Source: Bolinopsis microptera (Eukaryota; Ctenophora; Tentaculata; Lobata; Bolinopsidae). Taken from it: a DNA stretch of 64,000 bases. The translations under genes were made by a program, and so were the position numbers. Location: contig NC_087079.1 in NCBI RefSeq assembly GCF_026151205.1, forward strand, positions 1,054,001 to 1,118,000. The letters run 5' to 3'. The notes beneath the pieces are model-generated. The model ran no database searches and had not been told where the DNA came from. It was given only the letters and a program-made list of their open reading frames with translations. Below are positions 925-64,000 of the stretch, one piece after another (within the stretch, counting starts at the first letter, position 1; every line of letters begins with the position of its first letter).

Positions 925-3900
925 ATGGACACAGGAGAGGAGTCGAACTCCAAGTTTCTAGATAGAGCTATGTTAGATACAGTAACCGAAGGGGCCACGG
1001 AGGGAATCACCGACATTGTGAGTTTACACTATAACTTTAAAATAATGGCCCAGTTGTGGTTAAGTTTTAATCGCGTTTTATGCAATTTCGATATTTAACA
1101 AGCATAATTAGATCGGATTATGCTGAACTATTTTATTATTTGTGACGGTGATAAATCATTAATTGTCCTTCAATCTTTTAATACAGTACTATGCATGTGA
1201 ATTTCGTTAGATAAAACGTCTATTCTTTTGTCTTTGGTAGATTTGAGGATTCCCCAACTACAGTTGTTACCATGTTACCATGGTAACTGATGTGTTGTTA
1301 GGATTCCTTTACTTTTCTAGGTAGATAAAGTTCAGTGGGATGTTAAGGAGAAACTAACCAGGTCGAAATCTAAAAAGAAGCTAAAAGGTAAGCCATAGCT
1401 CTCTTCAGGGGTGTTTCTCTTGTTTTATCCATTAAAGTCGACTACGTGGAAACTCTGTAGCCTCCTCGAAATGTCTATACTTGAAAGGATCCCAGCCATG
1501 TCTTTACTTGAAATGAGCCCAGCTATACTATACTTGAAAGGAACCCAGCTATACTATTTGATAGTTCCCCCTCCCCAGGAACTCCCAGATCCGCAGTTTC
1601 CCCCAAGTCCTCCTCGGGAGGATTGTCCTGTCGTCCCCACACAGTCTCCCAGGTCCCCAGCAACTCACTCCGGAGACAGAGATCTAGAGTTGCTAGTGCC
1701 CCTCAACAGCGACCCACTTCCGCCGGACTTAAAGAGGTTTGATAATATACGGAGGGTCTTATCTGGTTATCTCGGGGCTGTTTTTTTACATATTTCCCTG
1801 TAATAAACTGATTAGCTAATCGTTATAGTAGTAGTAGTAATCGTTATAGTAGTAGTAGTAATCGTTATAGTAGTGGTAGTAATCGTTATAGTAGTGGTAG
1901 TAATCGTTATCGAGCGGCCTTTCCTCGGAAAATGCAGCCGATAGCCTCAAAACGTAATCTTAATAATTATTATCTATATTGAAGTTATTATTTATTATTA
2001 TCGCTCGTCTTTATCGGTGGATTTTACACGGGGGTACCTTCATCATGCACTCAAAATTGTATACGGCTGGTTCAAACCAATTTCAACTCTACTAGAGTCA
2101 CCTTTATCATTCTCGATGAATTAACACCTCACAGGGAACAACCGTTGCCATGGTAACCGAGCGATTGACTCTCAGCAAATCACTTTTATCTCGGGTAAAT
2201 ATTTTATTGAATATTTATAACTCAGTGTTCACTGTAGCATCATCTGCTTTTACCGCCTTTTCAATGTTTGTCTCGCTGTATTTATTTTCCAGGTATAATA
2301 GTATAATATATAGTAGTATATATAGTAGTATATATAGTAGTATATATTAGTAGTATTACTTTGCTTTCCGTCCAAATTGCTGCTTCTCTGAGGTAACGTC
2401 TATCTGTCTAACTATTTTGTTTGTCACATTGTGCCTGGCATCCCAGACAAACAACAACAATAAGAACCAAAACCACACACCAGACTCAGTGCTCACATTC
2501 CTGCACGTCTAGTATTACGTACAAACACGTGATATCCTTACAAGGTCATGTTACTGTGGTGAAACTTCCTAATATGGGGGTCACGTGGTTTCTGCTTTAT
2601 ACAACGTATGATCACTATTCTAACTAGACAAGCTTCAGTGGCTTTGCCAGACAGGAGCCATGCTACTAAAAACATGTGCTTTTTATCTTTTTCAATTACA
2701 ATTGTCACTTTTGACTTTTCTACGGCCTGTTTCTTTTATACATTTTGTATAAGTTACTTATAGCTACTGTAGCTGTAATGTTTGATATTTGAAATTGGGC
2801 ACAGAGCCAAAAACGACTTTGGCCTCTTTAAATTGACGAGCTTATTCTTTTGGAGACAACCTCCGTATCAGCTGGTTACCCAGACCGTGAGACACAGTTA
2901 CCCATACTACACACTACACACTACACACTACACACTATCTACACAGTGTGTAGTACACAGCATGGCTGTTTGTAGTAGTTATACAGATTCCGGCCTCTGC
3001 TTTAATTTATTCAATACTAATCATCTGGTAATGAATAGGAATAAGTGGCGCGCACTTTCTATCTCTCAGGTGACTTGTTAGCTTTACTAGCGGGATTTAT
3101 TTAAAGTAACAATGATTTTATATTATTTTATGCTTTCTTAATGTAACAGGATAGAAATTGTATCACTATTATGATTATATTAGAGTAGAATAAGTCACTA
3201 ACCTGGTAACCACCCCTGGTAACCACCCCTGGTAACCACCCCTGGTAACCGCCCCTGGTAACCACCCCTGGTAACCACCCCTGGTAACCATCCCTGGTAA
3301 CCACCCCCCCCCCCTGTAAACCACCCCTGGTAACCACCCCTGATAACCACCCCTGGTAACCACCCCTGGTAACCCCCCTTGTAAACCACCCCTGGTAACC
3401 ACCCCTGATAACCACCCCTGGTAACCACCCCTGATAACCACCCTTGGTAACCACCCCTGGTAACCACCCCTGGTAACCACCCCTGGTAACCGCCCTGGTA
3501 ACCGCCCCTGATAACCACCCCTGGTAACCACCCCTGGTAACCCCCCTCCCTGTAAACCACCCCTGGTAACCACCCCTGATAACCACCCCTGGTAACCACC
3601 CCTGATAACCACCCTTGGTAACCACCCCTGGTAACCACCCCTGGTAACCACCCCTGGTAACCGCCCTGGTAACCGCCCCTGGTAACCACCCCTGGTAACC
3701 ACCCCTGGTAACCACCCCTGGTAACCACCCCTGGTAACCATCCCTGGTAACCACCCCTGGTAACCACCCCTGGTAACCACCCCTTTTGCAGCGGATGGAG
3801 AAGAGAGTGCACGTGACTAAGAGAGTTCAGAGCGCCCCGGAAGTGAGAGCTCTGACTCCACCCACTTTACACAGAACTAAACAGGGCTGCCCCCTTACTT

Positions 3901-6900
3901 TTAGTGACCTTCTCAGAGCCGAGGAGGTTAGAACTTTTGGGACTCTTTTTTTTTCTTTTTTTAACTTGATTTCACTTTGTACAACATTTGCTTGTTTATT
4001 CTAAAGGACAGCGGGTGGTACCCCTATATGCGTTCTCCGAGTTCAGTTGATCATTAGGTGCTCTGTCCGCTCATTAACAACCCCATCCAGCACTCTTTAA
4101 CCAGCCCCCTCTCTCTCTCCAACACTCTTTAACCAGCCCCCTCTCTCTCTCCAACACTCTTTAACCACCACCCCCTCTCTCTCTAGCACTCTTTAACCAC
4201 CCCCCTCTCTCCAACACTCTTTAACCACCCCTCTGTCTCTCTCTCCAGCACTCTTTAACCACCCCCTCTCTCTCTCTCTAGCACTCTTTAACCACTCCCT
4301 CTCTCTCTCCAACACTCTTTAACCACCCCCTCTCTCTCTAGCACTCTTTAACCACCCCCTCTCTCTCTCTCTAGCACTCTTTAACCACTCCCTCTCTCTC
4401 TCCAACACTCTTTAACCACCACCCCCTCTCTCTAGCACTCTTTAACCACCCCTCTCTCTCTCTAACACTCTTTAACCCCCCCCCCCTCTCTCTCTCCAAC
4501 ACTCTTTAACCACCCCTCTCTCTCCAGCACTCTTTAACCACCCCCTTCTCTCCAACACTCTCAACTTCCCCTCGCAGAAAGGCGGTTTCGAGTCTAAGTG
4601 GGTTCTGCAGTGGGTTCTCTCTCCAACACTCTTTAACCACCCCCTCTATCTCTCTCCAGCACTCTTTAACCACTCCCTCTCTCTCTCTCCAACACTCTTT
4701 AACCACCCCCTCTCTCTCTCCAACACTCTTTAACCACCCCCTCTCTCTCTCTCTCTAGCACTCTTTAACCACCCCTCTCTCTCTCCAACACTCTTTAACC
4801 ACCACCCCCTCTCTCTCCAACACTCTTTAACCACCCCTCTCTCTCTCTCTCCAACACTCTTTAACCACCCCCTCTCTCTCTCCAACACTCTTTAACCACC
4901 ACCCCCTCTCTCTCTCTCTAGCACTCTTTAACCACCCCCTCTCTCTCTCCAACACTCTTTAACCACCACCCCCTCTCTCTCCAACACTCTTTAACCACCA
5001 CCCCCTCTCTCTCTCTCTAGCACTCTTTAACCACCCCTCTCTCTCTCTAGCACTCTTTAACCACCCCCTCTCTCTCCAACACTCTTTAACCACCACCCCC
5101 TCTCTCTCTCCAACACTCTTTAACCACCACCCCCTCTCTCTCTAGCACTCTTTAACCACCCCTCTCTCTCTCTCTCTCTCTCCAACACTCTTTAAGGGGG
5201 GGGGCCAATGGATATTTTTTTGTGAAACTTGATTTCGAGATAGTAGTTGACCAACAAACAAAGACCAGTGACCGAACTTTTGAGGGGGTCCCGGACCCCA
5301 ACCGCCAAACGGTGCGCGCAGGGCAGCCACGCCCATATTTGGTCCAAATTAGGCCCAATTTAGCCAAATACCCTGAACATGCCAAAAACCAAGGTTTATG
5401 GTGCTCTACTTGTAGCTAGTGGTCTCCTGAACTCGTATATGAAATTTCATCAAGATTGGACGAAAAATGACTGAGTTATGAGCCAAAAACCATATGCCCA
5501 TATTTGGGCATACGCACCAAATTTGGTAGATTTCGGCCCATAAATTGGCCAAATATCAATATTTTTGAATGAAACTTACTTTATATGAAAGGTAAGCCTA
5601 AACTACATATTATCTGTAAGTTATAGCTTTATATCTGTTTAAATGTGGATACTAAGGCGAAAAAACCACAAAAAATGAACTAAATTGCCCATATCTCGGT
5701 TCGCGATATTTGCGGAATTGATCTCATTAAAATTGTAACAACTCAATCAGTTTTCAAAATTTTTGCATGAAATTTTCGGAATCGACTCGAAATTGCATTT
5801 CCACCTTATTTTAAATACGGATTTTTGATTTAGGCCTCCAAAAAAATTTGGCGGCCAAATTCCAAAATTATCTCACAAAAATTCAGAATTTGGCCGCCAA
5901 ATTTTTTTGGAGGCCTTAATCAAAAATCCGTATTTAAAATAAGGTGGAAATGCGATTTCGAGTCGATTCCGAAAATTTCATGCAAAAATTTTGAAAACTG
6001 ATTGAGTTGTTACAATTTTAATGAGATCAATTCCGCAAATATCGCGAACCGAGATATGGGCAATTTAGTTCATTTTTTGTGGTTTTTTCGCCTTAGTATC
6101 CACATTTAAACAGATATAAAGCTACAACTTACAGATAATATGTAGTTTAGGCTTACCTTTCATATAAAGTAAGTTTCATTCAAAAATATTGATATTTGAC
6201 CAATTTATGGGACGAAATCTACCAAATTTGGTGCGTATGCCCAAATATGGGCATATGGTTTTTGGCTCATAACTCAGTCATTTTTTGTCCAATCTTGATG
6301 AAATTTCATATACGAGTTCAGGAGACCACTAGCTACAAGTAGAGCACCATAAACCTTGGTTTTGGGCATGTTCAGGGTGTTTGGCTAAATTGGGCCTAAT
6401 TTGGACCAAATATGGGCGTGGCTGCCATGCGCGCACCGTTTGGCGGTTGGGGTCCGGGACCCCCTCAAAAGTTCGGTCACTGGTCTTAGTTTGTTGGTCA
6501 ATCGCTATCTCGAAATCAAGTTTCACAAAAAAATACCCATTGGCCCCCCCCCTTAACCACCACCCCCTCTCTCTAGCACTCTTTAACCACCCCCTCTCTC
6601 TCTCCAACACTCTTTAACCACCCCCCTCTCTCTAGCACTCTTTAACCACCCCCTCTCTCTCTCTCTCTCCAACACTCTTTAACCACCCCCTCTCTCTCTA
6701 GCACTCTTTAACCACCCCTCTCTCTCTCTCTCTCTCCAACACTCTTTAACCACCCCCCTCTCTCTAGCACTCTTTAACCACCCCTCTCTCTCTCTCCAAC
6801 ACTCTTTAACCACCCCCTCTCTCTCTAGCACTCTTTAACCACCCCTCTCTCTCTCTCTCCAACACTCTTTAACCACCCCCTCTCTCTAGCACTCTTTAAC

Positions 6901-9900
6901 CACCCCTATCTCTCTCCAACACTCTTTAACCACCACCCCCTCTCTCTCTAGCACTCTTTAACCACCCCCTATCTCTCTCCAACACTCTTTAACCACCACC
7001 CCCTCTCTCTCTAGCACTCTTTAACCACCACCCCCTCTCTCTAGCACTCTTTAACCATCCCATCTCTCTCTCCAGCACTCTTTAACCACCCCTCTCTCTC
7101 TCCAACACTCTTTAACCACCACCCCCTCTCTCTCCAACACTCTTTAACCACCCCTCTCTCTCTCTCCAACACTCTTTAACCACCCCCTCTCTCTCTCCAA
7201 CACTCTTTAACCACCACCCCCTCTCTCTCTCTCTAGCACTCTTTAACCACCCCCTCTCTCTCTCCAACACTCTTTAACCACCACCCCCTCTCTCTCCAAC
7301 ACTCTTTAACCACCACCCCCTCTCTCTCTCTCTAGCACTCTTTAACCACCCCCTCTCTCTCTCCAACACTCTTTAACCACCACCCCCTCTCTCTCTAGCA
7401 CTCTTTAACCACCCCTCTCTCTCTCTCTCCAACACTCTTTAACCCCCCCCCCCCCTCCCCCCCCCCCTCTCTCTCTCCAACACTCTTTAGCCACCCCCTC
7501 TCTCTCTCTCTCTCCAGCACTCTTTAACCACCCCCTTCTCTCCAACACTCTCAACTTCCCCTCGCAGAAAGGCGGTTTCGAGTCTAAGTGGGTTCTGCAG
7601 TGTATTGAGTCGGACCTGTTTAACAAGACCTATAAACCCAAGAAGAGGATAACTTCAGCCCCTCCTAGATTTCACCACCCGCCCGGCAGTCTTAGACCAG
7701 CGTGAGTTAGTCTTAGTGATATAGTTCTTCAATCTGAATAGCTTGTAGTCTTAGACCAGCGTGAGTTAGTCTTAGTAATATAGTTCTTCAATCTGAATAG
7801 CTTGTTAATTTGAATGTAAACTATTTCTAGATATTCGTTAGTTCAAGAGTTCATTAAAAGACAGAAATAAGTGATTTTAGAAGAAGGTACGAGGGATGCT
7901 TTTTATCACACTGTACTTGGTATAATGTCCTCTCACTACTAGACTAGTGACTACTGACTACTGACTACTGACCTGCAGGTATATGGACAAGCCCCCCAAC
8001 CCTGCAGTGGAACCAGCGTATGACGAGGAATGGCACGACAAAATAGTGGAACAACACGAGACACGCAGGTACGTGTTGTTACCATGTGTAACTATAACAG
8101 TTGTTATCATGTGTTGTTACCATGGTAACTGATGTGTTGTTATCATGTGTTGTTATCATGGTAACTGATGTGTTGTTATCATGTGTTGTTACCATGGTAA
8201 CTACTACAGTTGTTATCATGTGTTGTTATCATGTGTTGTTATCTTGTGTAACTACTACAGTTGTTACCATGGTAACTACTACAGTTGTTACCATGGTAAC
8301 TACTACAGTTGTTATCATGGTAACTACAACAGTTGTTACCATGTGTTGTTACCATGGTAACTACAACAGTTGTTATCATGTGTTGTTACCATGGTAACTA
8401 CAACAGTTGTTATCATGTGTTGTTACCATGTGTAACTACTACAGTTGTTATCATGTGTTGTTACCATGGTAACTATAACAGTTGTTACCATGGTAACTGA
8501 TGTGTTGTTTGTTGGACGTTATTCTCATTAAAACATTGTTTACACCGTCTAGTCTTAACCTAAAATTAGACATAACCCATCAATACTGAGAAATAATACA
8601 AAACATTACTTTCAATTCAATAGTATGTATACAATTCAAGTAATTTATCGTTATGATAAATTGTGGTTCAAGATTTGAAGAGCTCAGTAATCATTGATAT
8701 ATATAAAGATTGCTTTAATCAAAACACTCTACAAATACCGTTAAATACGTTGTAATCATTGCAATATATATATATTACTTTAATCAAAACACTCTACAAA
8801 TACCGTTAAATACGTTGTTACGGAAGAATACCGACACTCACTGTCTACTGTCTACTGACTGTAGGGGAATGTAACAACTGAATGTAACAATATTTGATTG
8901 GTGATTGAAATATGAGTGTAGACAAGTTTTGCTAAGTTTTAGGGAATCCAGATGATATTTTGATGAGGTTCGTCATCCAGCACTTTGTCAAGCTCCAGCG
9001 TTTTACTTGTAGATCCTGAACTTTGTCAAACTCCAGCGTTTTACTTCTAGATCCTGAACTTTGCTCAGAGTTATCTGAAATGTGTGTAGCAGCCTATTTA
9101 AGGATGTTTTAATGTTATAATTGGTAGTTGGTGGTTTTTAGAACCACCACATCCGTCAGATCGGCCGCAACTAAAGTACTGGTGTTTTGAAGATTATGTA
9201 GTCATGTTACCATGGTTACCAGTTACATTGGAACTTTTTACATTTCACTAAAAGGAGCAGTTCCTTTTTGTCGTTTCTGCGTGACTTTCAGAAATATGTT
9301 GCAGATGTGATAAACGAGTAGATCCGAGTCCAGTTGTTAAACTTGTTAAAACGCTGTTGTGTCGACTAATTTATACCTTGTATAAATTGAATTCATTTGT
9401 TGTGCGTATTTGAGATTTCTTACCGTTTTCATCTCGTTTTCACACCCCTTGGTGTTAGTTATCCTGTTAAATAGATGGTTTAGCTGAATATTAACACTAT
9501 CCCTCTAAAACCTTGATCACCAGCTGAAGTAACATTGTTTAAATATTCCGATACCTTGATCACCAGCTGAAGTAACATTGTTTAAATATTCCGATACCTT
9601 GATCACCAGCTGAAGTAACATTGTTTAAATATTCCGATACCTTGATCACCAGCTGAATTAACATTGTTTAAATATTTCGATAGTGTTTCTTCGGCTATCT
9701 GTTAACTTTAATCCAACTATCTGTAGCTATAACTTCTATATACACTTTAAAGCCAGTTTAGATGAAAATACGTTATCCCTAGAATTGTTTGTCCCTACCT
9801 CATATAGGTTGCACAGCAAAAGGTGTCACCAATATTAAACCCACTCCCTTTTTAGCATCGACAGTTACTAGATTTAGCCTCACAGTCATTCCATAGCAGC

Positions 9901-12900
9901 GCAGTGATTATTCTAAGATCTATTATCAAGTTTATGTTAACTGTTTACTGTTTACGGTTGGAACCGTTATGTTAACTGTTTAGTGTTTACTAAGGTAACC
10001 TAGGTAACTAAGGTTGGATGCGCTTTTAGTTGTTTTAAGTACACTTCCTGCCTCATGGAACCTGACACAAAGTCTTAACTACGAAGATATTGTAGTGTTG
10101 TGGCGTGTTGTTAATGTGTGACTTGTGTGTAGTTTGGTATCTCGTATCTCAAGTCTCCTTATCAGGTCTTTGTCGTTGATAATGCAGGCAGTCCCCTCCC
10201 AGAGGATTATTTCTTGATGGTCTTTTTGTATCCCAAACTTAGCATCTAAGGATAAGAATTGGGGGAATTCTATCAAAAGGAAGTAGTTAATGGTAGAATA
10301 ATGATCAGCAAATAGGCTAGTAGCACTATCTTACTATTAAGCTATTACAATTAGAGGTAACTGGGCCATTTGCTTTAAAAACTCTTTTCATTTTCACACA
10401 CCTAGTATAAGATTTTATATATCTAACGCTATCTTTTAAAATTCTAATTCGCCAGCTGAAGCAATATTGTTCAATAGTTTTTGTTGTTTTTATTTTTATT
10501 TTGTTGTAAAACTTAGAGCATTAGTCCCCTTTAACAACTCCTATCTCTTTACCTGTGCCGGATAGTTTTTATAACTTTCGACAGCCTTAAACGATAATTT
10601 TAACAATCATCAGCTATAGAGTTTTATCAAAAGGATGGCGATTAAGTTGATATTGACTAAGGATCAGATATCATTGTATTTAAGCGGTGCTCAATGAGCG
10701 AGACTAATCACACCTGGCCCCTGGACCTCTACAACAAGTTGATACCGTGGTGTCAGTACAACCTGGACCTCTACAACATTATCAAGTTATTACTGTTGAT
10801 CCTTTGCCGCTCAGGAGGAACACACGGACGTTAAAAAGTCGTCCAAGACCCATCTGCCGCTTTACTTTTTGATTATCACTGATGTTTGCCTTACGAGAAA
10901 AGGCAGGTTTCAATAAATAATGGCAACTTATTATAACATATTAATAATATTTCTCTCAATGGTTAAGCTTTCAGACAATGTCATTGAACCAATCCCTCTA
11001 AACATTTAACATATTATTTACTTTCTAGATTACAGCTCTTGTTTAAGCTACATTGAACGTATTATTTACTTTCTAAATTACAGCTCTTGTTTAAGCTACA
11101 TTTTTGTCTCTAAATAATATCTCTTTAAGAAGATATCGGACATGTTTAGAGTACCAGACATAGAAGAGAACTTCGTCCCTAACCCCTACAAGCTGAGTCT
11201 GAGTATTAGCAAGTGGGTTACAATACCAGCTGGTGCCCTCCTCTTTATCAGCAGCACTCTCACTGTCTACCTCATTATCAAGCACTTCAGACCCCTCCTG
11301 AAGCTCTATCTCTCTGTTCTAATGTACCTGTTCTCCCAATTACTACTCCTAACTGTTGTCATGTCCTTCTTCATCCTGGAACTAGTCTCACCCACAGATA
11401 CACATGTTACCATGGTAACAGATACACATGATAGATGTCGAATAAAGCAGGGTCTGCAAACATTCGCTCTGCTTCTGCCGGGTTACTGTGTCCTGATCAT
11501 CACCCTGGTGAGAAGCCTGTTTGTAACTTTCCCTCTCTCTTACTCTCACTTCATCAAGAAGAGGTACCAGCTGGCAGGGCTGGGAGTCTCTGTGCTGGTT
11601 TGTGGACTAGTATCAGCTGCACCTAGTCTAGGGCTCTGTAGTGTCACCGTCACTAAGGAGATTGTTGGTGGGGAGGGAAATACAGATGAGATTACAATTT
11701 GTGGTTTTGAGGACAAATCAGAGATGGCCTGCAAAGCTTTCTTTGGTATTCTTTTAGCTTTGGGTTTTATTTTGCCTGTTCTGTCTGTGATCATACTTTA
11801 CTTCTACATTATCCGAGTAGTCATCAGGGCAAGGAAATCACACAGCATCTTGACCAAATCTGCCTCATCATCTAGTGAACATTTCAAATCAAAAGAAAGT
11901 ATGGAGCAAAGGTCGGTACCCTGGTCGATAATAGCGATCCTAGTTGTTTGTCTCACCACCACGCTACCCTGGGCTGGGATGATCGTCTACACTGTGGAGA
12001 TAACTGAAATGCTTGCGAATGGAGGACAGTTTTCCTATGTATTTGATGTTTTCTACTCAGTGCTACAGATCCTGATTGGATGCTCTCCCTTGGTATATCT
12101 TCTAACTACTAACTCTATGAGGGGGGAACTTCTCAGAATGTTTCAAGGTTCTTGCTCCAGACGGAATAACTCTTGAGCCTACGTGAGACTACGTGAGCCT
12201 ACCTGAGACTACGCGAGCCTACTAGTATAATGATTAAGCAGAACTTTTATCTTTTAGTTTTGAAGTGTAGATACTACTATGGGTGACGTGAGACCAAACT
12301 GATGCCATTTTATGCCATTTTAAACCATAGCCTCACCCCCATCCAGCGGATGCTATTAAAGTATTACCAATTACTGCATGTTACCATGGTTACTATTTAC
12401 AATAATTACCAATTATTGCAATCGATGTTTGTGGGATAGTGAGACATCTGGACTGGTGATCTACGTGTCGTCTTAGCCTTAGACTTTCTGTCGTACATTC
12501 TTAATCATATCGAGGAAGATAATGTAAAACTTTACTATTAAGACATTTAATTTAGATAGTTTTAACTAATCATTAGCGCATTAGTACAATTGAAAATGAA
12601 CTCTTTGAAAAGAAGAAATCAGAATTCAGATTCGCGGTATAAAATTGAACATAGTTCACAATCTTATTATGTACAACTGATAGATTCGTTATTCGAAAGA
12701 TTAAACGAATCAGGATGTGATTCTGTAAGTAATAAATATTGCTGAGGAGTAAACTATAGATACAATCATAATATTTTAAGGTAGAATTAATCAATCGATT
12801 ACAATTAAATTTAAATACAAATGTTACATATTCACGAACTATGAAGTCAGAGCTGTAATATATGAGTAGCAAGTATCATGCAATAAACACTTCACAGATT

Positions 12901-25209: not shown

Positions 25210-25370
25210 GTTACCATAGTTACCATAGTTACCATAGTTACACTAGGCATTGCACAGCTATATAGTGTGGGCTATGCATTGTACAGCTAGCGTGGGCTAG
25301 ACATTGCACAGCTATATAGTTACCATAGTTACACTAGGCACTGCACAGCTAGTGTAGGCTAGGCATTGCT
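25207..25370. repeat. Repeats of the stop-codon region in the 3' UTR
   Basis: The end of the first gene's coding sequence (ACAGCTAGTGTGGGCTAG) recurs in variant form several times downstream, mixed with GTTACCATA units. Confidence 0.8.
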
Positions 25371-48590: not shown

Positions 48591-49199
48591 AACGTGCCCA
48601 GAATTAGGTACCCTTGTTAGAGTTGAAATGCTCAGATCCCAGGCAGGGACTATAATATCATCTAGACTATATTCTAGTCTATCCAATATATAGTATCTAT
48701 ACTATCTAGACTATCAGCTATAATACTAATTTACTATCTGGATTATCTAGTCGGTAATGACTAATGTTATCAGATATAATGATGTTCATTGTTCAGGGTT
48801 ATAAGAACTGATAATAATAATTCACGCATCTTTAAATTCTTCAAGGGGTAAATATTTAATACAGAATAATGTTAGTTAATAACCTTACTCGCTGTGAGGT
48901 GTCTCTACTTAGAGATCAGGTGAATGAAAATAACTCTCATTACAACTATTACTGTTTGTTAATTAATTTTAATTTATAACCAACAATGTTTTACTGTTTA
49001 ATGAAGGTCGCTTTGGTCGGTAATAATATAATTGTATAATATCATGGTTCGTTACCAAGGGGATTATTACTCATAATAAATGTATTATTCTCAACCTAGA
49101 TTGGAAATGATGGCAATATATCTGGCAATATATCTCGTTATAATGTGATGACGTCACTGTGATATAATCTCCCGTTCCTATGGTTACTAGCTCACTTAC

Positions 49200-52100: not shown

Positions 52101-55100
52101 AGTCTAGTAATTAATTAGTCTAGTAATTAATTAGTTTATAATTAATTTGGACTTTATAGAGAAGTGTCGACTGTTGCAATCCTATCAGACATCTAAGGAT
52201 GACCTGATTAAAGCAGTCCAGCCCCAAGTTCGTTCTGGTAGAGTTTGGAGGCCTGAGACAGAACTGGAAGAGGCCAGAAGAGATTTGGTCTGTGAATCGG
52301 TGCGGGGGATGGTGCAACCTCAAAAAAGAGTTGGCATCGGTTTTGGTGACTGGAAAAAACCTTGGGAGAGGATGGAGAGCGGGAAAGAGAGAGGGAGGTT
52401 ATGCTGAGAGTGAAGGAGAACATTGAAAGAGAGAGGGAGGTGCAAGTAGGTTCTCTGGAGATGCAGAGCAGGTGGGGTGAGTGGAGAGAGCTCGTAATGA
52501 AGACGGATTTGAGCTGGCATACACTTTTTAAGTATGGTGACTCACTTATTGGGTTCATGCTAAGTGCTGTGTACGGCACCCTCTTAACCCCCTCTATGGT
52601 TTCCAAGTGGAGTGAAGATGAGGATGGGAAGTGCAAGTTATGTGAGGAGAGGATGGGCACAGGGGTCGACCGAGGGCAGGATTTTCGACCGAGGCCGAGG
52701 CCGAGGAAAATACAGTTAGTTAAGACCGAGGCCGAGGACAACCGAGGTTTCTTTTTTTTGACCGAGGCCGAGGCCGAGGCCGAGGAGTGCAAATTTTGAC
52801 CGAGGCCGAGGCCGAGGCCGAGGAATTTTGGCAGAAAAATTGTTGGAAAAAAGGGCATTGTTTATTAGGAAAAGCGCACTGTACCTGGATAGTACCTCAC
52901 AGTCTGAAGAAGACGATGAATTCGAAGAAAATAGTGAGAAGATAAGGAGGGAAGCTAACAGATACTTAAAAGACTCTCGAGTTGATTTATCATTTCAACC
53001 ATTAGTTTTCTGGAAAGCTAATAAGCAGAGCTATCCGAACCTTGCTGAGTGTTCAAGGAAATATATATCTGCGCCGGCGAGCTCAGCAGCACCAGAGAGA
53101 TTGTTTTCTACAGCAGGGCACATCCTGAAGTTAAATCGCCTCAGCCTTAAGCCAACAAACTTTGAGGGGTGCTTGTTTCTCAAAAAGAACATCGGAACAT
53201 TTGGGGACGACTTCGGCCCCTGTCCAAATGAATTTGAAGCCCCAAATAAAGAGGACTGTCCCCCTTCTGAGCTGTGCACAGAAGATTATTCTGATTCAGA
53301 GTGCTCAGATATTGTCATTTCATCAGACGATGAATCTTAGACTATGATATTTTTAGTTTTGTGTCCTGGTCAATTGGTCGTTTTATTTTCAATTTTACAA
53401 ATTCGTTTACATAAACCTCTGTAAGTCTGTAGAAAAATTCCCAAAATTTCAAGAAAAATCCTCGGTCAAATCCTCGGTAAAATCGTCAAATTTCGCCGAG
53501 GCCGAGGAATTTCGAATCTATTTTTGACCGAGGCCGAGGCGAACCGAGGAATTGTCCTCCTGACCGAGGCCGAGGCCGAGGCCGAGGAAAAATCGCCATT
53601 CCTCGGTAAAACCGAGGCCGAGGCCGAGGACTCGGTCGACCCTTGGATGGGCACCATTCAGCACATTTTGGCTGGGTGTAAGGTGGCCCTTAGTCAAGGA
53701 AGGTATAGATGGCGGCACGACAAGGTTCTGAAGCAGATCTCTGAACAGGTTGTCTTCCATTGTGATCGCCGAGTGAACACTTATAAGAACAAGGCCGGCG
53801 ATGGAAGGCAGTTCATTGATTTTGTTCCTGCTGGGAAAAGAAAAGCAGGTACAGACGACCGGAAGGAGAGTCGTGGTTTTAGGATCCTGAGTGGGTATCG
53901 GGATTGGATAGTGCTGTCAGACCTTGAGGGGCAGCTTAAGTTTCCCAGTGAGATTGTGGAAACACGGCTGAGGCCGGACCTTGTGATATTCTCAAGGTCG
54001 GCAAAGACAGTTATTTGGTGGGAGCTAACAGTACCATCTGAAGAGCGGATCGCTGAATCGCACGAGTACAAGCTCGACCGATACAGCGGTCTGCAGGCTG
54101 AGATTCAGGCAAAAGGTTGGTGCTGTTATAATGCCGCAGTCGAAGTTGGAGCTAGGGGAGTGGTTGCGCAGAGTTTGGAGAGAGCTGCGAGGAGGATTGG
54201 TTTTAGGGGAAGAGAGCTGAAGAAGCTGGTACGGGACAGCGGGAAAGAGGCAGCCCACTGTTCCAGATGGATTTATTTGTTATCGAGAAAGAGGGAGTGG
54301 GAGTTCAGGAAGGTTGGAGCTTGAAAGTTCACTATAACATCTAGAGGTACCATAAACGTTATCTCGTCGCCAATTGCGAGCTCTAACGGGTCTCCTCAAG
54401 TGACTCTCGGATCAGATGGTGGTTCAAGGGTGGACTGCTGGGGCGCCTGACAGGAAACCGTATTGCGATTAAAGCCCCGAAACGGTGTCAGGTTGGTAAC
54501 TGATGATTCTGATCCATGCTCCTGTGAGTTTGCTGTTGTATCTCAACTCGCTAAACTGAGGCATCTCCGCATCTTGGGTGAATATGCGTACATCTTCATA
54601 CTAAACCCAGGTGTGGCATGTGTCAGTGAATACGGGCGAGCGGATGCAATAGCGAAGGTGGTGTGGCAAGGCCTAAAAGACACAGTCAGATAGTTGTCAG
54701 CTCGCTGACTGTAAGGGAGAAGGTATATCCGTATTTCGCTGCTACTGATGCAGTCCTTGATCTGGCAATCAAGGCTTCTCTGTTTTTCGTCTAACTATGT
54801 ACCGTTGGGCTTGTGGAACCCTTAGGGGGGACATACATAGGTTAGAATGGTTTTGCGCACCAAGAGGAGTGAGGGAATGAGGGTTGAAGAGAGAGAGCTA
54901 GAGAGTTGTTAGGGTGGTTAGGATCAGTAGGTGGAGTGTTTGGTTGGAGCGTTCTGTTTTTGCTGTATAGCATTTTAGTCACTCCGCAGTTTATTAACTG
55001 TGTCTCAACTCTGAACCTCCGAATAAGTGCCTACAGGTTTACTGAAGGCACAAGGTTTGCTTCCTTTATCATATTTTATAGATAGACAAGGTTATTGGGA

Positions 55101-58100
55101 TATTAACAATATCAAATCCGAAGATTGATTGGGGACCAGCTTTGCTTACTGGCCAATGTTTACTTTAGATATTATATATTATTATAGATACAAAATTGAT
55201 GTAAAAAAGTTGCACAAAATACTCAGTAACTCCTAACCTCTATATGACTGATAAATGATAAATGTGACCGCCCCTCAGATTGCTGATATCAAGTCATTGC
55301 TGAGGTTTAGTTTCGAGATACTTCTCCATCATGACGAGGGTTACACGCTGGCTATGTCCAACATCTACTCTTACATCAGCAAGATTAATTTCGACTCTGA
55401 GTACACCGACTTCACCTTGTCCCACGACCGGTGCAACACCTTGAAACCATGTAAGTAACTATGGTAACTATGGTAACTATAGTAACTATGAGTACACCGA
55501 CTTCACCTTGTCCCACGACCGGTGTAACACCTTGAAACCCTGTAAGTAACTATGGTAACTATGGTAACTATAGTAACTATAGTAACTCTGAGTACACCGA
55601 CTTCACCTTGTCCCACGACCGGTGTAACACCTTGAAACCCTGTAAGTAACTATAGTAACTATAGTAACTATAGTAACTATAGTAACTCTGAGTACACCGA
55701 CTTCACCTTGTCCCACGACCGGTGTAACACCTTGAAACCCTGTAAGTAACTATAGTAACTATAGTAACTATAGTAACTATAGTAACTCTGAGTACACCGA
55801 CTTCACCTTGTCCCACGACCGCTGCAACACCTTGAAACCCTGTAAGTAACTATGGTAACTATGGTAACTATAGTAACTCTGAGTACACCGACTTCACCTT
55901 GTCCCACGACCGGTGCAACACCTTGAAACCCTGTAAGTAACTATAGTAACTATGGTAACTATAGTAACTCTGAGTACACCGACTTCACCCTGTCCCACGA
56001 CCGCTGCAACACCTTGAAAGTTGAAACCCTGTAAGTAACTATAGTAACTATAGTAACTCTGAGTACACCGACTTCACCTTGTCCCACGACCGGTGTAACA
56101 CCTTGAAACCCTGTAAGTAACTATAGTAACTATAGTAACTATAGTAACTATAGTAACTCTGAGTACACCGACTTCACCTTGTCCCACGACCGCTGCAACA
56201 CCTTGAAACCCTGTAAGTAACTATGGTAACTATAGTAACTATAGTAACTCTGAGTACACCGACTTCACCTTGTCCCACGACCGGTGCAACACCTTGAAAC
56301 CCTGTAAGTAACTATAGTAACTATGGTAACTATAGTAACTATAGTAACTCTGTGTACACCGACTTCACCTTGTCCCACGACCGGTGCAACACCTTGAAAC
56401 CATGTAAGTAACTATGGTAACTATGGTAACTATAGTAACTCTGAGTACACCGACTTCACCTTGTCCCACGACCGGTGCAACACCTTGAAACCCTGTAAGT
56501 AACTATGGTAACTATGGTAACTATAGTAACTATAGTAACTATAGTAACTCTGAGTACACCGACTTCACCTTGTCCCACGACCGGTGCAACACCTTGAAAC
56601 CCTGTAAGTAACTATAGTAACTATGGTAACTATAGTAACTATAGTAACTCTGAGTACACCGACTTCACCTTGTCCCACGACCGGTGCAACACCTTGAAAC
56701 CCTGTAAGTAACTATAGTAACTATGGTAACTATAGTAACTATAGTAACTCTGAGTACACCGACTTCACCTTGTCCCACGACCGGTGCAACACCTTGAAAC
56801 CCTGTAAGGAACTATGGTAACTATGGTAACTATAGTAACTCTGAGTACACCGACTTCACCCTGCCCCACGACCGGTGTAACACCATGAAACCCTGTAAGT
56901 AACTATGGTAACTATGGTAACTATGGTAACTATAGTAACTCTGAGTACACCGACTTCACCTTGTCCCACGACCGGTGTAACACCTTGAAACCCTGTAAGT
57001 AACTATGGTAACTATGGTAACTATAGTAACTCTGAGAACACCGACTTCACCTTGTCCCACGACCGGTGTAACACCTTGAAACCCTGTAAGTAACTATAGT
57101 AACTATAGTAACTATAGTAACTCTGAGTACACCGACTTCACCTTGTACCACGACCGGTGTAACACCACGAAACCCTGTAAGTAACTATGGTAACTATGGT
57201 AACTATGGTAACTATGGTAACTATAGTAACTCTGAGTACACCGACTTCACCTTGTCCCACGACCGGTGTAACACCTTGAAACCCTGTAAGTAACTATGGT
57301 AACTATGGTAACTATAGTAACTCTGAGAACACCGACTTCACCTTGTCCCACGACCGGTGTAACACCTTGAAACCCTGTAAGTAACTATAGTAACTATAGT
57401 AACTATAGTAACTATGGTAACTCTGAGTACACCGACTTCACCTTGTCCCACGACCGCTGCAACACCTTGAAACCCTGTAAGTAACTATGGTAACTATGGT
57501 AACTATAGTAACTATAGTAACTCTGAGTACACCGACTTCACCTTGTCCCACGACCACTGCAACACCTTGAAACCCTGTAAGTAACTATGGTAACTATGGT
57601 AACTATAGTAACTATTTACTATAGTAACTCTGAGTACACCGACTTCACCATGTCCCACGACCGCTGCAACACCTTGAAACCCTGTAAGTAACTATGGTAA
57701 CTATAGTAACTATGGTAACTCTGAGTACATCGACTTCACCTTGTCCCACGACCGCTGCAACACCTTGAAACCCTGTAATTAATTAGTTAATTACGTGCTT
57801 TAAGTATCAATTAATAACGGTATGAAATGTTTGCTGTTGGATCCCGAAAAACGATTTTAAATAACTTATATCAAGAAATTATCAATATTTATCATATTAT
57901 TTTATGTCGAGTCAGTACATTACGTATTTGAAGGTGGATATGCAAGTTATTACTCCTTTTAGGTAACGAGGAGTAGTAACTATAGTAACTATTACTCCTG
58001 TCAGGTAACGAGGAGTACAACACGTCTCTCCAGAAGTACACCTCTCTAAACCTGCCCATAAAGCAGCTAATAGTTAACGAGCTGACTGACTACACACTGC

Positions 58101-61100
58101 GTGCTAAACTAGATGCTCACAAGACAGACCTGAAGTATATAGACGAGAAGCTGGAGGCGAAGTCTCAGAAACTGGAACAGTATGAGACTGAGGGTGGGGA
58201 GAAGACTGACGAGTCTAAGGTTATTTTTAGGTTTTATTATTTTATAGTTTATTTATTTTATGATATTATACTGGTAATAAATATACTCTTATAAACACCT
58301 CCGGGGGCGGTCCGGGACATTTAATTGTAAATGGGAATGCCTCCCAGAGATCCTAAAAAATATAATTTTATTTAAATATCATTAATTATAAATGACTGAA
58401 TTTTAAAATTTTGTTTCGAATTTGAATTCAAATCTATTATCTAATAAAATAACAATATTTGTTTGTTTAGAAACTGAACATCAAGTTATCTATTATATAC
58501 TAATAAAATAACAATATTTGTTTGTTTAGAAACTGAACATCAAGGCTCACTTGCATGAGTTAGGCGCACAGAGATGCCGGTACCAGATGACAGTGAACTT
58601 TATATCAGATAGTGTAGAGCAGTGGAAGGGGAAACCGTTAGAGCCGTTCTACAAACTACTCCCTTGTACTTTAGACCCTATCAGAGGGAACACACTGTCT
58701 AACATCAGTCAGAGTATGATGTTACCGCAGTGTTTGGGAGCTGTCTCTCCTGCTACTCAGAGGTAAGCTCCCCCCAGTGCACCCCACCCCCCTCCTCCTG
58801 CAATATATTCTAGATGTTGAATATATTCTAGAAGTTGAGTATATTCTAGATTCAGTTAAATAGAGTATGACGAAATGTTATAACTGTAATTATGGAATAA
58901 TATTAATTATTCGTATAATAATATTATTTTCCCAGACGGCCAAATGCAACTCTAACTAAGATCAAGAATCTTCTGACACTGGGACGACAGACTTCGTTCG
59001 ATAACACTAAAGACCTCAACCTTGGTAACTAAACTTTAATAACCTCCATTTCCCTGCATACATCTCATCTATCAATTATTAATACTTGCCCTGACCACGC
59101 TTTCTTTTGGTAACCGTCTGCTTCCACATTTTAAAATTATTCCAGAATTGACTAATAAGCAAATTTAATTGCAGAAAGTTTATTAATCCAAACGTACTTT
59201 ACCCACCGATCCTGTTGTTTGTTTGACCAAATATACGACAGGCCGGGTATGTACTAAACCAGTGTGGTGTGTTAGAGTGGTGTTCTAACTAGTGGCGTGT
59301 TAGTTACCTAGTTACCTAGTTACCTAGTTACCTAGTTACCTAGTTACCTAGTTACCTAGTTACCTAGTTACCTAGTTACCTAGTTACCTAGTTACCTAGT
59401 TACCTAGTTACCTAGTTACCTAGTTACCTAGTTACCTAGTTACCTAGTTACCTAGTTACCTAGTTACCTAGTTACCTAGTTACCTAGTTACCTAGTTACC
59501 TAGTTACCTAGTTACCTAGTTACCTAGTTACCTAGTTACCTAGTTACCTAGTTACCTAGTTACCTAGTTACCTAGTTACCTAGTTACCTAGTTACCTAGT
59601 TACCTAGTTACCTAGTTACCTAGTTACCTAGTTACCTAGTTACCTAGTTACCTAGTTACCTAGTTACCTAGTTACCTAGTTACCTAGTTACCTAGTTACC
59701 TAGTTACCTAGTTACCTAGTTACCTAGTTACCTAGTTACCTAGTTACCTAGTTACCTAGTTACCTAGTTACCTAGTTACCTAGTTACCTAGTTACCTAGT
59801 TACCTAGTTACCTAGTTACCTAGTTACCTAGTTACCTAGTTACCTAGTTACCTAGTTACCTAGTTAGAGTGGTGTTCTAACTAGTGGCGTGTTAGTTACC
59901 TAGTTACCTAGTTACCTAGTTACCTAGTTACCTAGTTACCTAGTTACCTAGTTACCTAGTTACCTAGTTACCTAGTTACCTAGTTACCTAGTTACCTAGT
60001 TACCTAGTTACCTAGTTACCTAGTTACCTAGTTACCTAGTTACCTAGTTACCTAGTTACCTAGTTAACACTGTAACCTCTAGTTACCTAGTTACCTAGTT
60101 ACCTAGTTACTTAGTTACCTAGTTACCTAGTTACCTAGTTACCTAGTTACCTAGTTACCTAGTTACCTAGTTACCTAGTTAGAGTGGTCTTCTCTGTACT
60201 ATAGTAGTGACTAGTGGTGTGTTAGTTACCTATTTACCTAGTTACCTAGTTACCTAGTTACCTAGTTACCTAGTTACCTAGTTAGAGTGGTATTCTCTGT
60301 ACTATAGTAGTGACTAGTGGTGTGTTAGTTACCTAGTTACCTAGTTACCTAGTTACCTAGTTACCTAGTTACCTAGTTACCTAGTTACCTAGTTACCTAG
60401 TTACCTAGTTACCTAGTTACCTAGTTACCTAGTTACCTAGTTACCTAGTTACCTAGTTACCTAGTTACCTAGTTACCTAGTTACCTAGTTACCTAGTTAC
60501 CTAGTTACCTAGTTACCTAGTTACCTAGTTACCTAGTTACCTAGTTAGAGTGGTGTTCTAACTAGTGGCGTGTTAGTTACCTAGTTACCTAGTTACCTAG
60601 TTACCTAGTTACCTAGTTACCTAGTTACCTAGTTACCTAGTTACCTAGTTACCTAGTTACCTAGTTACCTAGTTACCTAGTTACCTAGTTACCTAGTTAC
60701 CTAGTTACCTAGTTACCTAGTTACCTAGTTAACACTGTAACCTCTAGTTACCTAGTTACCTAGTTACCTAGTTACTTAGTTACCTAGTTACCTAGTTACC
60801 TAGTTACCTAGTTACCTAGTTACCTAGTTACCTAGTTACCTAGTTAGAGTGGTCTTCTCTGTACTATAGTAGTGACTAGTGGTGTGTTAGTTACCTATTT
60901 ACCTAGTTACCTAGTTACCTAGTTACCTAGTTACCTAGTTACCTAGTTAGAGTGGTCTTCTCTGTACTATAGTAGTGACTAGTGGTGTGTTAGTTACCTA
61001 GTTACCTAGTTACCTAGTTACCTAGTTACCTAGTTACCTAGTTACCTAGTTACCTAGTTAGAGTGGTCTTCTCTGTACTAGAGTAGTGACTAGTGACTAG

Positions 61101-62192
61101 TGACTAGTGGTGTGTGTCTAATGTTGACTTCTAGCTCTCTAACTCTATGAGTTAACCCTGATAGGGTGTCTGGTTTTATTTGTCTTATTTGTCTCTTGAC
61201 CCCCCACCGCTTTACTGTCTCTTGAAAGGTTGAGAAGTTGTGTATTATAACATTATACCTCTTATTATCACCTACATTTGTTTCATGTGTGTGTGTATTG
61301 CTTGCGGAGTTGTGTCTCTACTGAAGTGAGGCACTGTTTCAAATATGATTTAGTTGTAAAAAAGTAAAAGTAAAAAGTAAAAAGCCCCACAACCTCGTTC
61401 TGACTTATTACTGTGAAGAGAAGAATCATGAATAAAAATATTGATGAAAATATTATATATTATATAGTTTACTCACAAACTACGCAACTAAACCCCCTAA
61501 GCTAAGTTAAGCCACTAAGCTAAGTAAACCCGCTAAGCTAAATAAACCCACTAAGCTAAGTAAACCCGCAGGAACACCAGTAGCGATGAAGTGGGAGGAA
61601 GATGAAGATAAGGACTATGTAATAATGACGAAGGAGGATGAGGCTTCCAACAGTTCGGGTAACAGTAACGAGGAGGAGGAGGCTGAGTGCCCTAAAGTAC
61701 TTCTAGAGACCGACTCTAATGTGAGTAAGGATTATTGTTCACATTTAAACTGGAAACATAAACCAACCAAAATAACTTATTGAAGTATTATCCCCGAAAT
61801 GAAACTACTTCTTCTATCTCTCGAGAAAGTAACAACACGATCACTGCACTAGTACAGTGATATGCTGCACTAGTAGTACTGCACTAGTACAGTGATATGG
61901 GACCCCGCTTTACTACCAGTCCCTCTTCAGGACTCGCTGGAGAACCAGCCGTGGTTCCACAACGACATAACCCGGCAAGAAACAGCAGAGCTGCTCCAGA
62001 GTAAAGGACAGTTTCTGATCAGGAAGACTATAGACTCTAAACGTCGCACTGCGGTTCTTGTGCTGAGTGTGAACGCTGGGAGTGTCGGGATCAAACACTT
62101 TATAATGCAGATCAATGATAAGGGACAGTTTAGATTAGAGGGAACCTGGTTCAATTCCATCCAACAGCTTCTTAACTATCATATTGATACTG
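49200..62192 (+). CDS. FES/FER: FES/FER-type tyrosine kinase, F-BAR to SH2 (3' end outside the window)
   Basis: Ten exons: 49200-49263, 49412-49629, 51180-51412, 51712-51895, 55279-55450, 58005-58219, 58530-58762, 58936-59024, 61572-61720 and 61931-62192. Phases fit at all nine junctions; 606 codons so far. Residues ~1-280 are helical and F-BAR-like (ELKFVDEVKSYFTQRKKLEEDYAES; EILPGISAVSEKKKKAIIDL). A second helical region follows (FX-like), then an acidic linker, then an SH2 domain from about 520 with W527, the phosphotyrosine-binding FLIR (R550), HFIMQI and FRLEGTWFNSI. F-BAR plus SH2 is diagnostic of FES/FER, membrane- and cytoskeleton-linked non-receptor kinases. The kinase domain should follow beyond 64000. 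Introns 2, 5 and 10 and the upstream edges of exons 6, 7 and 9 carry junction-derived repeats. Confidence 0.88.
49621..50560 (+). repeat. FES/FER exon 2 end and donor amplified (~17 units of ~52 nt)
   Basis: Each unit contains a copy of the exon end ACCTTCGAGACG and the following donor GGTA, plus TTAATCAATTAATTAGTTAA and TGAGTTAC. Variants are TTTGAGGCG and TTTAAAACG. The first unit is the real exon 2 end at 49629. Confidence 0.92.
50695..51060 (-). pseudogene. LINE C-terminal fragment in FES/FER intron 2
   Basis: The minus strand reads RRILAEIAFKNFEKVW, then RKLRLYDAQVVSVLIYNSNSW and MDTLHRRHLRSILNI, the typical thumb and C-terminal block of LINE proteins. It is short, with no RT core. Confidence 0.75.
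51900..52146. repeat. 16-nt minisatellite TAGTCTATTAATTAAT
   Basis: About 15 units immediately after FES/FER exon 4. The LINE-derived sequence starts at its right edge. Confidence 0.93.
52660..53645 (+). mobile_element. Internally deleted hAT transposon, 986 bp, 8-bp target duplication
   Basis: Ends are CAGGGGTCGACCGAG and its inverted partner CTCGGTCGACCCTTG (one mismatch). The flanks GATGGGCA at 52652-52659 and 53646-53653 are an exact 8-bp duplication, as expected for hAT. Both subterminal regions are crowded with GACCGAGGCCGAGG repeats. The interior keeps only the transposase C-terminus. Confidence 0.93.
52828..53340 (+). pseudogene. hAT transposase C-terminal (dimerisation) domain remnant
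   Basis: 170 codons. PLVFWKANKQSYPNLAECSR and ASSAAPERLFSTAGHI are the hallmark of the hAT dimerisation domain, followed by RLSLKPTNFEGCLFLKKN and an acidic tail. The catalytic DDE region and BED finger are absent, so it cannot act alone. Confidence 0.88.
54831..55278. other. Rest of FES/FER intron 4
   Basis: No gene seen. AT-rich towards the acceptor CCCCTCAG at 55271-55278. Confidence 0.5.
55394..57779 (+). repeat. FES/FER exon 5 end and donor amplified (about 24 extra units)
   Basis: Units of ~85-110 nt carry a copy of the last ~55 nt of exon 5 (from GAGTACACCGACTTCACC to TTGAAACCCT), the donor GTAAGT, and a variable run of AACTATGGT/AACTATAGT. I count 24 copies after the real exon end at 55450. 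Nearly all keep the GTAAGT; the last has GTAATT. Confidence 0.95.
57950..58004 (+). repeat. Duplicated acceptor before FES/FER exon 6
   Basis: TTACTCCTTTTAG|GTAACGAGGAGTA at 57950-57974 repeats as TTACTCCTGTCAG|GTAACGAGGAGTA at the true exon start 58005, 43 nt later. Confidence 0.85.
58441..58545 (+). repeat. Duplicated acceptor and exon 7 start
   Basis: A ~46-nt segment ending TTTGTTTAG|AAACTGAACATCAAG occurs twice, with acceptors at 58470 and 58529. Only the second copy continues into exon 7. Confidence 0.9.
59303..61056. repeat. 8-nt satellite TTACCTAG with higher-order spacers
   Basis: About 200 units of GTTACCTA in FES/FER intron 8. They are interrupted by recurrent spacers (AGAGTGGTGTTCTAACTAGTG; AGAGTGGTCTTCTCTGTACT; AACACTGTAACCTCTA) that recur in the same order, so blocks of about 650 bp have themselves been duplicated. 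Confidence 0.95.
61496..61571. repeat. CTAAGCTAAGTAAACCC repeat ending at the exon 9 acceptor
   Basis: Four to five ~18-nt units. In the last the CTAAG step is replaced by CAG, which serves as the acceptor. Confidence 0.85.
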
Positions 62193-64000
62193 GTAAGTCA
62201 GCAACTTCTTAACTATCATATTGATACTGGTAAGTCAGCAACTTCTTAACTATCATATTGATACTGGTAAGTCAGCAACTTCTTAACTACCATATTGATA
62301 CTGGTAAGTCAGCAACTTCTTAACTATCATATTGATACTGGTAAGTCAGCAACTTCTTAACTATCATATTGATACTGGTAAGTCAGCAACTTCTTAACTA
62401 CCATATTGATACTGGTAAGTCAACAGCTGCTTAACTACCATATTGATACTGGTAAGTCAGCAACGTCTTAACTACCATATTGATACTGGTAAGTCAGCAA
62501 CTTCTTAACTACCATATTGATACTGGTAAGTCTGCAACTTCTTAACTATCATATTGATACTGGTAAGTCAACAACTTCTTAACTACCATATTGATACTGG
62601 TAAGTCAGCAACGTCTTAACTACCATATTGATACTGGTAAGTCAGCAACGTCTTAACTACCATATTGATACTGGTAAGTCAGCAACTTCTTAACTATCAT
62701 ATTGATACTGGTAAGTCAACAACTTCTTAACTATCATATTGATACTGGTAAGTCAGCAACTTCTTAACTACCATATTGATACTGGTAAGTCAGCAACTTC
62801 TTAACTACCATATTGATACTGGTAAGTCAGCAACTTCTTAACTACCATATTGATACTGGTAAGTCAGCAACTTCTTAACTACCATATTGATACTGGTAAG
62901 TCAGCAACTTCTTAACTACCATATTGATACTGGTAAGTCAGCAACGTCTTAACTACCATATTGATACTGGTAAGTCAGCAACTTCTTAACTATCATATTG
63001 ATACTGGTAAGTCTGCAACTTCTTAACTATCATATTGATACTGGTAAGTCTGCAACTTCTTAACTATCATATTGATACTGGTAAGTCAGCAACTTCTTAA
63101 CTATCATATTGATACTGGTAAGTCTGCAACTTCTTAACTACCATATTGATACTGGTAAGTCTGCAACTTCTTAACTATCATATTGATACTGGTATGTCAG
63201 CAACATCTTAACTATCATATTGATACTGGTAAGTCAGCAGCTTCTTAACTATCATATTGATACTGGTAAGTCAGCAACTTCTTAACTATCATATTGATAC
63301 TGGTAAGTCAGCAACTTCTTAACTACCATATTGATACTGGTAAGTCAGCAGCTTCTTAACTATCATATTGATACTGGTAAGTCAGCAGCTTCTTAACTAT
63401 CATATTGATACTGGTAAGTCTGCAACATCTTAACTATCATATTGATACTGGTAAGTCAGCAACTTCTTAACTATCATATTGATACTGGTAAGTCTGCAAC
63501 TTCTTAACTACCATATTGATACTGGTAAGTCTGCAACATCTTAACTATCATATTGATACTGGTAAGTCAGCAACTTCTTAACTACCATATTGATACTGGT
63601 AAGTCAGCAACTTGTTAACTACCATATTGATACTGGTAAGTCAGCAACATCTTAACTATCATATTGATACTGGTAAGTCTGCAACTTCTTAACTACCATA
63701 TTGATACTGGTAAGTCAGCAACTTCTTAACTATCATATTGATACTGGTAAGTCAGCAACTTCTCAACTACCATATTGATACTGGTAAGTCAGCAACTTGT
63801 TAACTATCATATTGATACTGGTAAGTCAGCAACTTCTCAACTACCATATTGATACTGGTAAGTCAGCAACTTGTTAACTATCATATTGATACTGGTAAGT
63901 CAGCAACTTCTTAACTATCATATTGATACTGGTAAGTCAGCAACTTCTTAACTATCATATTGATACTGGTAAGTCAGCAACTTCTTAACTATCATATTGA
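62168..64000 (+). repeat. FES/FER exon 10 end and donor amplified (37-nt unit, at least 48 copies)
   Basis: Each unit holds ~25 nt of SH2-coding exon end (CTTCTTAACTATCATATTGA then TACTG) and 12 nt of intron starting GTAAGTCAGCAA. The real donor is at 62193. The array runs to the window edge at constant 37-nt spacing, with few variants (TCTGC, AACGTC, CTACC). Nearly every unit keeps CTG|GTAAGT. Confidence 0.97.

Follow-up and report, generated by a model that had tools for sequence, protein, structure and literature searches.

Minisatellite arrays spanning exon-intron boundaries in the ctenophore Bolinopsis microptera, with a modest excess at gene junctions

The window, the whole stretch of 64,000 nucleotides that was analysed, corresponds to positions 1054001-1118000 of contig C8 in a 264.65-Mb assembly of 232 contigs. 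It harbours a gene called G1 here, a cyclin K gene, exons of a FES/FER-like gene (FES-like in the following) and a single-exon ORF that was named receptor-like by eye (Table 1). The models of G1 and cyclin K were built by hand from the sequence and then matched letter for letter to RefSeq proteins. The G1 model is frame-consistent and shows 100% identity over 360 aa to the B. microptera uncharacterized protein LOC134819248 isoform X2, and the cyclin K model shows 100% identity over 362 aa to the B. microptera cyclin-K-like isoform X2. A Pfam search of the G1 protein returned no family. For the FES-like gene we located 16 exons between 49200 and 81816, with 0 stops; its last exon was looked for beyond 81816 and was not found. 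Pfam identified FCH (F-BAR) and SH2 domains in its product, and the top PDB match was the SH2 domain of FER. The model aligned without gaps to an 895-aa FES-like relative, with 833 of 847 residues being identical. This relative has a kinase domain and is encoded on a contig of 2858 bases, which is too short for introns. The gene neighbouring the FES-like gene is presumably GCAT-like (2-amino-3-ketobutyrate CoA ligase).

Table 1. Genes and repeat arrays, in window coordinates
Feature	Coordinates	Strand	Remarks
Gene G1	925-25209	+	8 exons: 925-1017, 1321-1387, 1579-1736, 3792-3926, 7568-7701, 7979-8068, 24031-24155, 24929-25209
13-bp x45 array	3202..3784	+	Ends 8 bp short of G1 acceptor 3792
32-bp minisatellite, G1 intron 4	4086..7535	+	TRF rows 4086-5174 and 6553-7535; last unit ends 33 bp upstream of acceptor 7568
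59-bp x2 repeat	7688..7805	+	Crosses G1 donor 7701
Weak 7-bp array	7935-7972		7 bp from G1 acceptor 7979
Array with units carrying GTTACCATGGTAAC	8073..8498	+	Begins 5 bp beyond G1 donor 8068
Single-exon ORF, receptor-like	11118-12176	+	Stop to stop
20-bp x2.5 repeat	12174..12222	+	Starts at stop codon of receptor-like ORF (12176)
9-bp GTTACCATA repeat	25210..25241	+	Directly 3′ of G1 stop codon (25209)
Cyclin K gene	44905-48436	+	7 exons; Pfam Cyclin_N
21-bp x36 array, cyclin K intron 5	46602..47350	+	Ends 10 bp short of acceptor 47360
65-bp x3 repeat	48396..48593	+	Crosses cyclin K stop codon (48436)
FES/FER-like gene, part in window	49200-64000	+	Exons 49200-49263, 49412-49629, 51180-51412, 51751-51895, 55279-55450, 58005-58219, 58530-58762, 58936-59024, 61572-61720, 61931-62192; runs past window
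52-bp x18 array	49618..50556	+	Crosses FES-like donor 49629
16-bp x15 array	51907..52147	+	Begins 12 bp beyond FES-like donor 51895
100-bp x24 array	55394..57782	+	Crosses FES-like donor 55450
Low-copy duplication, shift 42	57949..58018	+	Duplicates FES-like acceptor 58005
Low-copy duplication, shift 59	58445..58544	+	Duplicates FES-like acceptor 58530
8-bp array, 1.76-kb	59301-61060		Contacts no junction
18-bp x4 array	61489..61567	+	Ends 5 bp short of FES-like acceptor 61572
37-bp array	62168..64000, on to 69434	+	Crosses FES-like donor 62192; about 196 copies, 7.3 kb
FES-like arrays beyond window, donor-spanning	69807, 72191, 74628, 81816		19 x8, 39 x34, 51 x50 and 45 x20, respectively
FES-like array beyond window, acceptor-spanning	74528		43 x23

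In total, TRF reported 101 rows for the window, which were merged into 42 arrays (period of at least 7) covering 23% of it. Repeat coverage is regional: among 20 sampled stretches of 10 kb, the five from the 0.7-1.31 Mb interval of C8 showed 14-77%, and the remaining fifteen 0.3-21%. Coding sequence is largely free of arrays, which take up 152 of its 10,593 bases. Introns are covered to 37-41% at distances of more than 120 bp from a junction, and to 16% within 15 bp of it. When the repeats are subtracted, the median original intron length is 294 bp.

The initial annotation had listed 14 splice sites and stop codons at which repeats start, cross or abut. Tandem repeats were indeed found at, across or beside all 14, and 11 of these are boundaries in use: donors 7702, 8069, 49630, 55451 and 62193, acceptors 3791, 47359 and 61571, and the stop codons at 12176, 25209 and 48436. 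The other three, listed as acceptors 4577, 57961 and 58470, duplicate acceptors 7568, 58005 and 58530, respectively, and are not in use; being made by duplications, they are themselves cases of boundary duplication. For instance, the minisatellite in G1 intron 4, which is interrupted by a foldback element (about 5192-6556), holds a duplicated exon-5 acceptor together with the start of that exon at about 4577-4611, and 4476-4612 matches 7457-7602 at 93%. Furthermore, three junctions had been overlooked, namely donor 51895, with an array starting 12 bp further, donor 58219, with a weak array 2 bp away, and acceptor 7979, with a weak array at 7 bp.

The four genes have 12 junction-spanning arrays, with the exon-intron boundary inside the repeated unit. 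They affect splice sites of either type, namely eight donors in G1 and the FES-like gene, acceptor 74528 and three GCAT-like acceptors. The units that span donors measure 19 to 100 bp. In the 10-kb GCAT-like stretch, all three arrays cross an acceptor, one of them with only 5 exon bases inside the array. With regard to stop codons, three have repeats (12176, 25209 and 48436), and 0 of 3 minus-strand ORF ends in the window carry repeats (raw counts).

The units consist of contiguous exon-intron DNA. Across 104 kb, TGATACTG is followed by GTAAGT in 192 of 195 occurrences, and an intact donor is present in nearly all copies found in the four arrays examined. The copies are similar to each other, with TRF matches of 80-98% in most arrays. 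At the protein level, the 895-aa FES-like relative has no extra residue in the 847 aligned, at any junction. The Mnemiopsis FES-like protein has short insertions at three places, of 2, 1 and 8 residues, and no array-spanned junction is among these places; the nearest lies 10 residues before junction 58219. Since the repeat copies are absent from the proteins of these relatives, the outer splice sites are evidently the ones in use there, judging from the alignments. This poses a splicing puzzle, as one donor has to be chosen when about 190 identical donors follow.

Of the 45 junctions in the window, 4 lay inside arrays and 11 had an array no more than 15 bp away, where a circular-shift null gave 10.4 and 11.1, respectively. 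Genome-wide boundary overlap was the measure by which the initial annotation had wanted its proposed bias to be judged; in the window, such overlap is no higher than repeat density predicts. Because exons are nearly closed to arrays, such a plain overlap test is blunt. Array edges were found within 15 bp of a junction in 9 cases against 1.8 expected, an excess that is partly forced because arrays hardly enter exons. All circular-shift counts used 51712 for one FES-like acceptor, which is 51751 in the corrected model.

A second null describes founding duplications: the array length is subtracted from each intron, and a unit is placed anywhere in the remainder or across its edge. Contacts were scored for arrays with units of at least 12 bp that span a junction or have an edge within 15 bp of it. 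Contact was made by 21 of the 46 intronic arrays of the four genes, compared to 8.2 expected (P: 0 of 100,000), and 12 were spanning compared to 5.0. With introns capped at 400 bp, to allow for lengthening by later insertions, the expectations were 13.0 for contacts (P=0.004) and 8.0 for spanning arrays (P=0.07); expected contacts and fold excess vary with the assumed original intron length, with shorter introns giving a higher expectation. Four arrays with units below 12 bp were left out of this null, including 59301-61060 (no contact) and 7935-7972 (touching acceptor 7979). When they were added, 22 of 50 arrays made contact against 8.4-13.4. The FES-like gene alone has 6 donor-spanning arrays where 1.3 are expected. 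After its removal, 7 of 20 arrays made contact against 3.6 (P=0.013), or against 5.6 when introns were capped at 600 bp (P=0.3), and 8 of 22 against 3.8-5.8 with the short-unit arrays. The junction excess is modest, about 1.6- to 2.6-fold, and is mostly carried by the FES-like gene.

Two other calculations were set aside. With the full intron length as denominator, 8 donor-spanning arrays were compared to 0.47 expected, which was discarded as overly favourable, given that the array bases enlarge the denominator. A placement simulation, which gave 13 against 1.4 for the genes of the window and 8 against 0.9 for the sequence downstream, has the same inflated denominator and treated nested single-exon genes as non-coding. 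In a base-level self-similarity analysis of the repeat-rich zone, a local copy was present at 756 of 1500 random intron positions, 7 of 29 donors and 3 of 28 acceptors.

As the hypothesis arose from the window, only held-out sequence counts as an independent test. This set comprises the rest of the FES-like gene past 64000 and the GCAT-like gene, both in the same repeat-rich chromosomal zone. Here, 11 of 20 arrays made contact against 4.7 expected, or 5.6 with a 600-bp intron cap (P=0.003), and 8 were spanning against 2.9. Among the large held-out arrays, 6 of 7 span a junction, where 1.8 are expected. For the GCAT-like gene alone, contacts were not significantly increased (3 of 3 arrays against 1.8, P=0.17). 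What stands of the boundary bias claimed at the outset is thus an excess of contacts over a uniform null that is also seen in held-out sequence; outside the FES-like gene the bias is weak or absent.

In addition, we analysed 25 other regions totalling 243 kb, with 144 arrays and 144 predicted exons; six myosin loci and three stretches taken from the repeat-rich part of C8 are among them. The exon predictor was trained on 12.8 kb, of which one piece (506 nt) was out of frame. Leaving out the FES-like gene, it made 14 calls at the cut-off used, of which 13 overlapped true exons, and 9 of 15 exons were exact. Before counting, any predicted exon with half or more of its length in arrays was removed. 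We observed 16 contacts against 8.2 expected (P=0.0135), with 10 donor-adjacent arrays against 2.0, 4 acceptor-adjacent arrays against 2.0 and 2 spanning arrays against 4.2; this null is a placement simulation with the inflated denominator, a flaw that is smaller here as most of the regions are repeat-poor. For arrays scoring at least 150, there were 6 contacts against 4.2. At the six myosin loci, which have domain-model support, local copies were found at 0 of 28 donors and 0 of 28 acceptors (about 0.5 each expected from random intron positions); at random, intron positions there have a local copy in just 41 of 2173 cases, so zero at the junctions says little. A kinase family search gave mostly intronless kinases and was not used.

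The initial annotation had known of no described process behind such repeats and had regarded them as a candidate for an undescribed system. However, similar repeats have already been described in amphioxus. According to the available excerpts, the ‘mirages’ in amphioxus Adh3 and in the globin genes BflGb6 and BflGb9 are minisatellite-like repeats that span exon-intron boundaries, and the mechanism that makes them was called unclear (PMC3087553); TnC and PGBD5 are further examples (PMC3902484). As in Bolinopsis, the units described contain the boundary, and donors as well as acceptors are affected; for amphioxus, regular splicing is reported (PMC3087553, PMC3902484). The Bolinopsis arrays differ in that they occur in another phylum, that one of them reaches about 196 copies, that several lie in one gene and that repeats also cross or abut stop codons. 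In the Rogers model of intron gain by tandem genomic duplication, as cited in the excerpted part of PMC3087553, the duplication likewise carries splice signals, whereas the Bolinopsis introns already part frame-consistent exons. Human variable internal tandem repeats, as excerpts of PMC2812944 present them, are also minisatellites that alter gene structure, some of them at exon-intron boundaries, but they lie in segmental duplications and half are within coding sequence. In an open-licence literature search, we found neither a ctenophore report of boundary-spanning repeats (PMC12221973, one of the papers returned, concerns chromatin loops) nor a test of a genome-wide junction bias for such repeats. 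The Bolinopsis arrays are real and known in kind, and as far as this search reaches they are new in Ctenophora. They provide a second, distant lineage, with a chromosome-scale genome, in which the origin of mirages can be addressed. The question at stake is whether duplications really arise more often at exon edges or just survive there.

We consider it probable that the arrays are mirage-type minisatellites, that is ordinary tandem duplications tolerated at exon edges and followed by minisatellite growth. The unit anatomy, the exon models, the missing extra residues in the relative and the counts are observations, to which this explanation adds a mutational step, a selective filter and a growth mechanism by inference. 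In a duplication-prone chromosomal region, replication slippage or template switching in the germline would generate tandem duplications of about 20-100 bp. Selection would remove copies that lie wholly within an exon. Intronic or edge-straddling copies may be tolerated, since the splice site adjoining the exon body (the first donor or the last acceptor) would still work, and copies of a stop codon, since the first stop would still be used; the extra copies would stay in the intron or the 3′ UTR. Tolerated copies could then expand via ordinary minisatellite turnover. With introns of a median of about 300 bp without repeats, many founding duplications would touch a junction anyway. However, such a uniform process with a filter underpredicts the contacts both in the four genes (21 of 46 against 8.2-13.0) and in the held-out set (11 of 20 against 4.7-5.6), so some component is missing from this explanation. 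The donor-adjacent excess in the 25 regions is also unlike a one-gene accident.

Alternatively, the duplication rate might be raised at junctions by paused polymerase, R-loops, bound splicing factors or the step in exon/intron composition. The donor-spanning arrays of the FES-like gene, the large held-out arrays and the donor-adjacent arrays of the 25 regions all point in this direction. However, the excess is weak or gone once the FES-like gene is removed, spanning arrays are fewer than expected in the 25 regions, and stop codons also carry arrays without any splicing there. We hold junction-directed duplication to be unlikely. In its broadest form, a germline process of ctenophores would be directed at coding/non-coding edges, donors above all but also acceptors and stops; minisatellites of active regions would then originate mainly at exon edges, where introns would also be continually lengthened. 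This, too, we regard as rather unlikely.

Tolerated duplication followed by minisatellite growth also fares better than explanations based on motifs or on selection, both of which appear improbable. If the splice motif GTAAG itself were prone to tandem duplication, it should be common in arrays elsewhere. Among 183 non-junction arrays, GGTAAC and GGTTAC are shared (4.4- and 5.0-fold over background), so motifs matter generally, but the donor core GTAAG is not enriched (9 against 10.0, 0.9 of expectation). Selection for tunable splicing or splice-site redundancy, one of the origins put forward by the initial annotation, could account for the intact donors in nearly all copies of the four arrays. 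Copies this similar need no selection to keep their motifs, however, and we found no evidence for tunable splicing: the FES-like relative has no alternative product at the array junctions. That GC-rich, exon-like DNA is more prone to form arrays, of which only edge cases survive, is very improbable; exons have 47% GC compared to 38% in non-array introns, but the GC content of the units does not exceed that of the background they were matched to (medians of 0.357 and 0.367, respectively; n=122, P=0.58). Least probable are copies templated by lariats, as considered at the outset, or by spliced cDNA; nothing was found in their favour, since lariats are without exon and cDNA is without introns, whereas the units join both; this contiguity speaks against these two templates only, and unspliced pre-mRNA could still have served as one.

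Repeat coverage in the B. microptera genome assembly is regional and is high at about 0.7-1.3 Mb of C8, the contig that holds the window. In five 10-kb samples from this part of C8, repeats covered 14-77% of the sequence, and in fifteen other 10-kb samples, taken on C8 and on contig C1, they covered 0.3-21%.

In the window, we found a motif (GTTACCATGGTAAC/GTTGCCATGGCAAC) that resembles the palindromic RFX X-box. When counted in the whole genome, GTTACCATGGTAAC occurred 786 times versus once for its reversed control, and GTTGCCATGGCAAC 123 times versus none. The two hexamers GGTAAC and GGTTAC are common to many minisatellites that have no relation to one another.

The 32-bp array in intron 4 of gene G1 contains a foldback element, which matched its own reverse complement at 97% across 1365 bases. 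A piece of its arm matched at least 41 places in the genome with 98-100% identity, a lower bound on places in which one element is often counted as two.

Features in the window (positions in nt)
Feature	Position	Strand	Basis or remark
Exact X-box-like motif	8073-8498, 11405		
Related GTAAC/GTTAC units	3202, 25210, 55394, 59301		
Foldback element	5192-6556		self-match to reverse complement
Cysteine-rich, LDLR-like ORF	15770-16426	minus	named by eye
Seven-pass receptor-like ORF, after LDLR-like ORF	12892-15810	minus	named by eye
Two close copies of receptor-like gene	18701-19802, 21524-22468	minus	named by eye
Reverse-transcriptase-like ORFs, LINE-type element	27547-29185		named by eye
Long (CCCTGA)n array	34653-34871		36 copies, 99%; TRF

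On stretch L009, a 30-bp array of 38 copies (8295-9422) starts at a predicted minus-strand donor. On stretch L030, which carries a GCAT-like gene, the GCAT donor has a short copy (AACGCTGGTATG) roughly 50 bp inside its intron (5848-5921); TRF called no repeat there, and the copy is possibly a decayed donor duplication. In the window, intron 4 of cyclin K is a GC-AG intron (GC start at 46009, TCAG|gcaagatt), and the exon model around it is identical to that of RefSeq.

The LDLR-like and seven-pass ORFs overlap in different frames, so either an intron has been overlooked or the reading frame is broken. The first of the two receptor-like copies is split across two frames. The (CCCTGA)n array is flanked on both sides by CAATTGAC-type repeats in opposite orientations.
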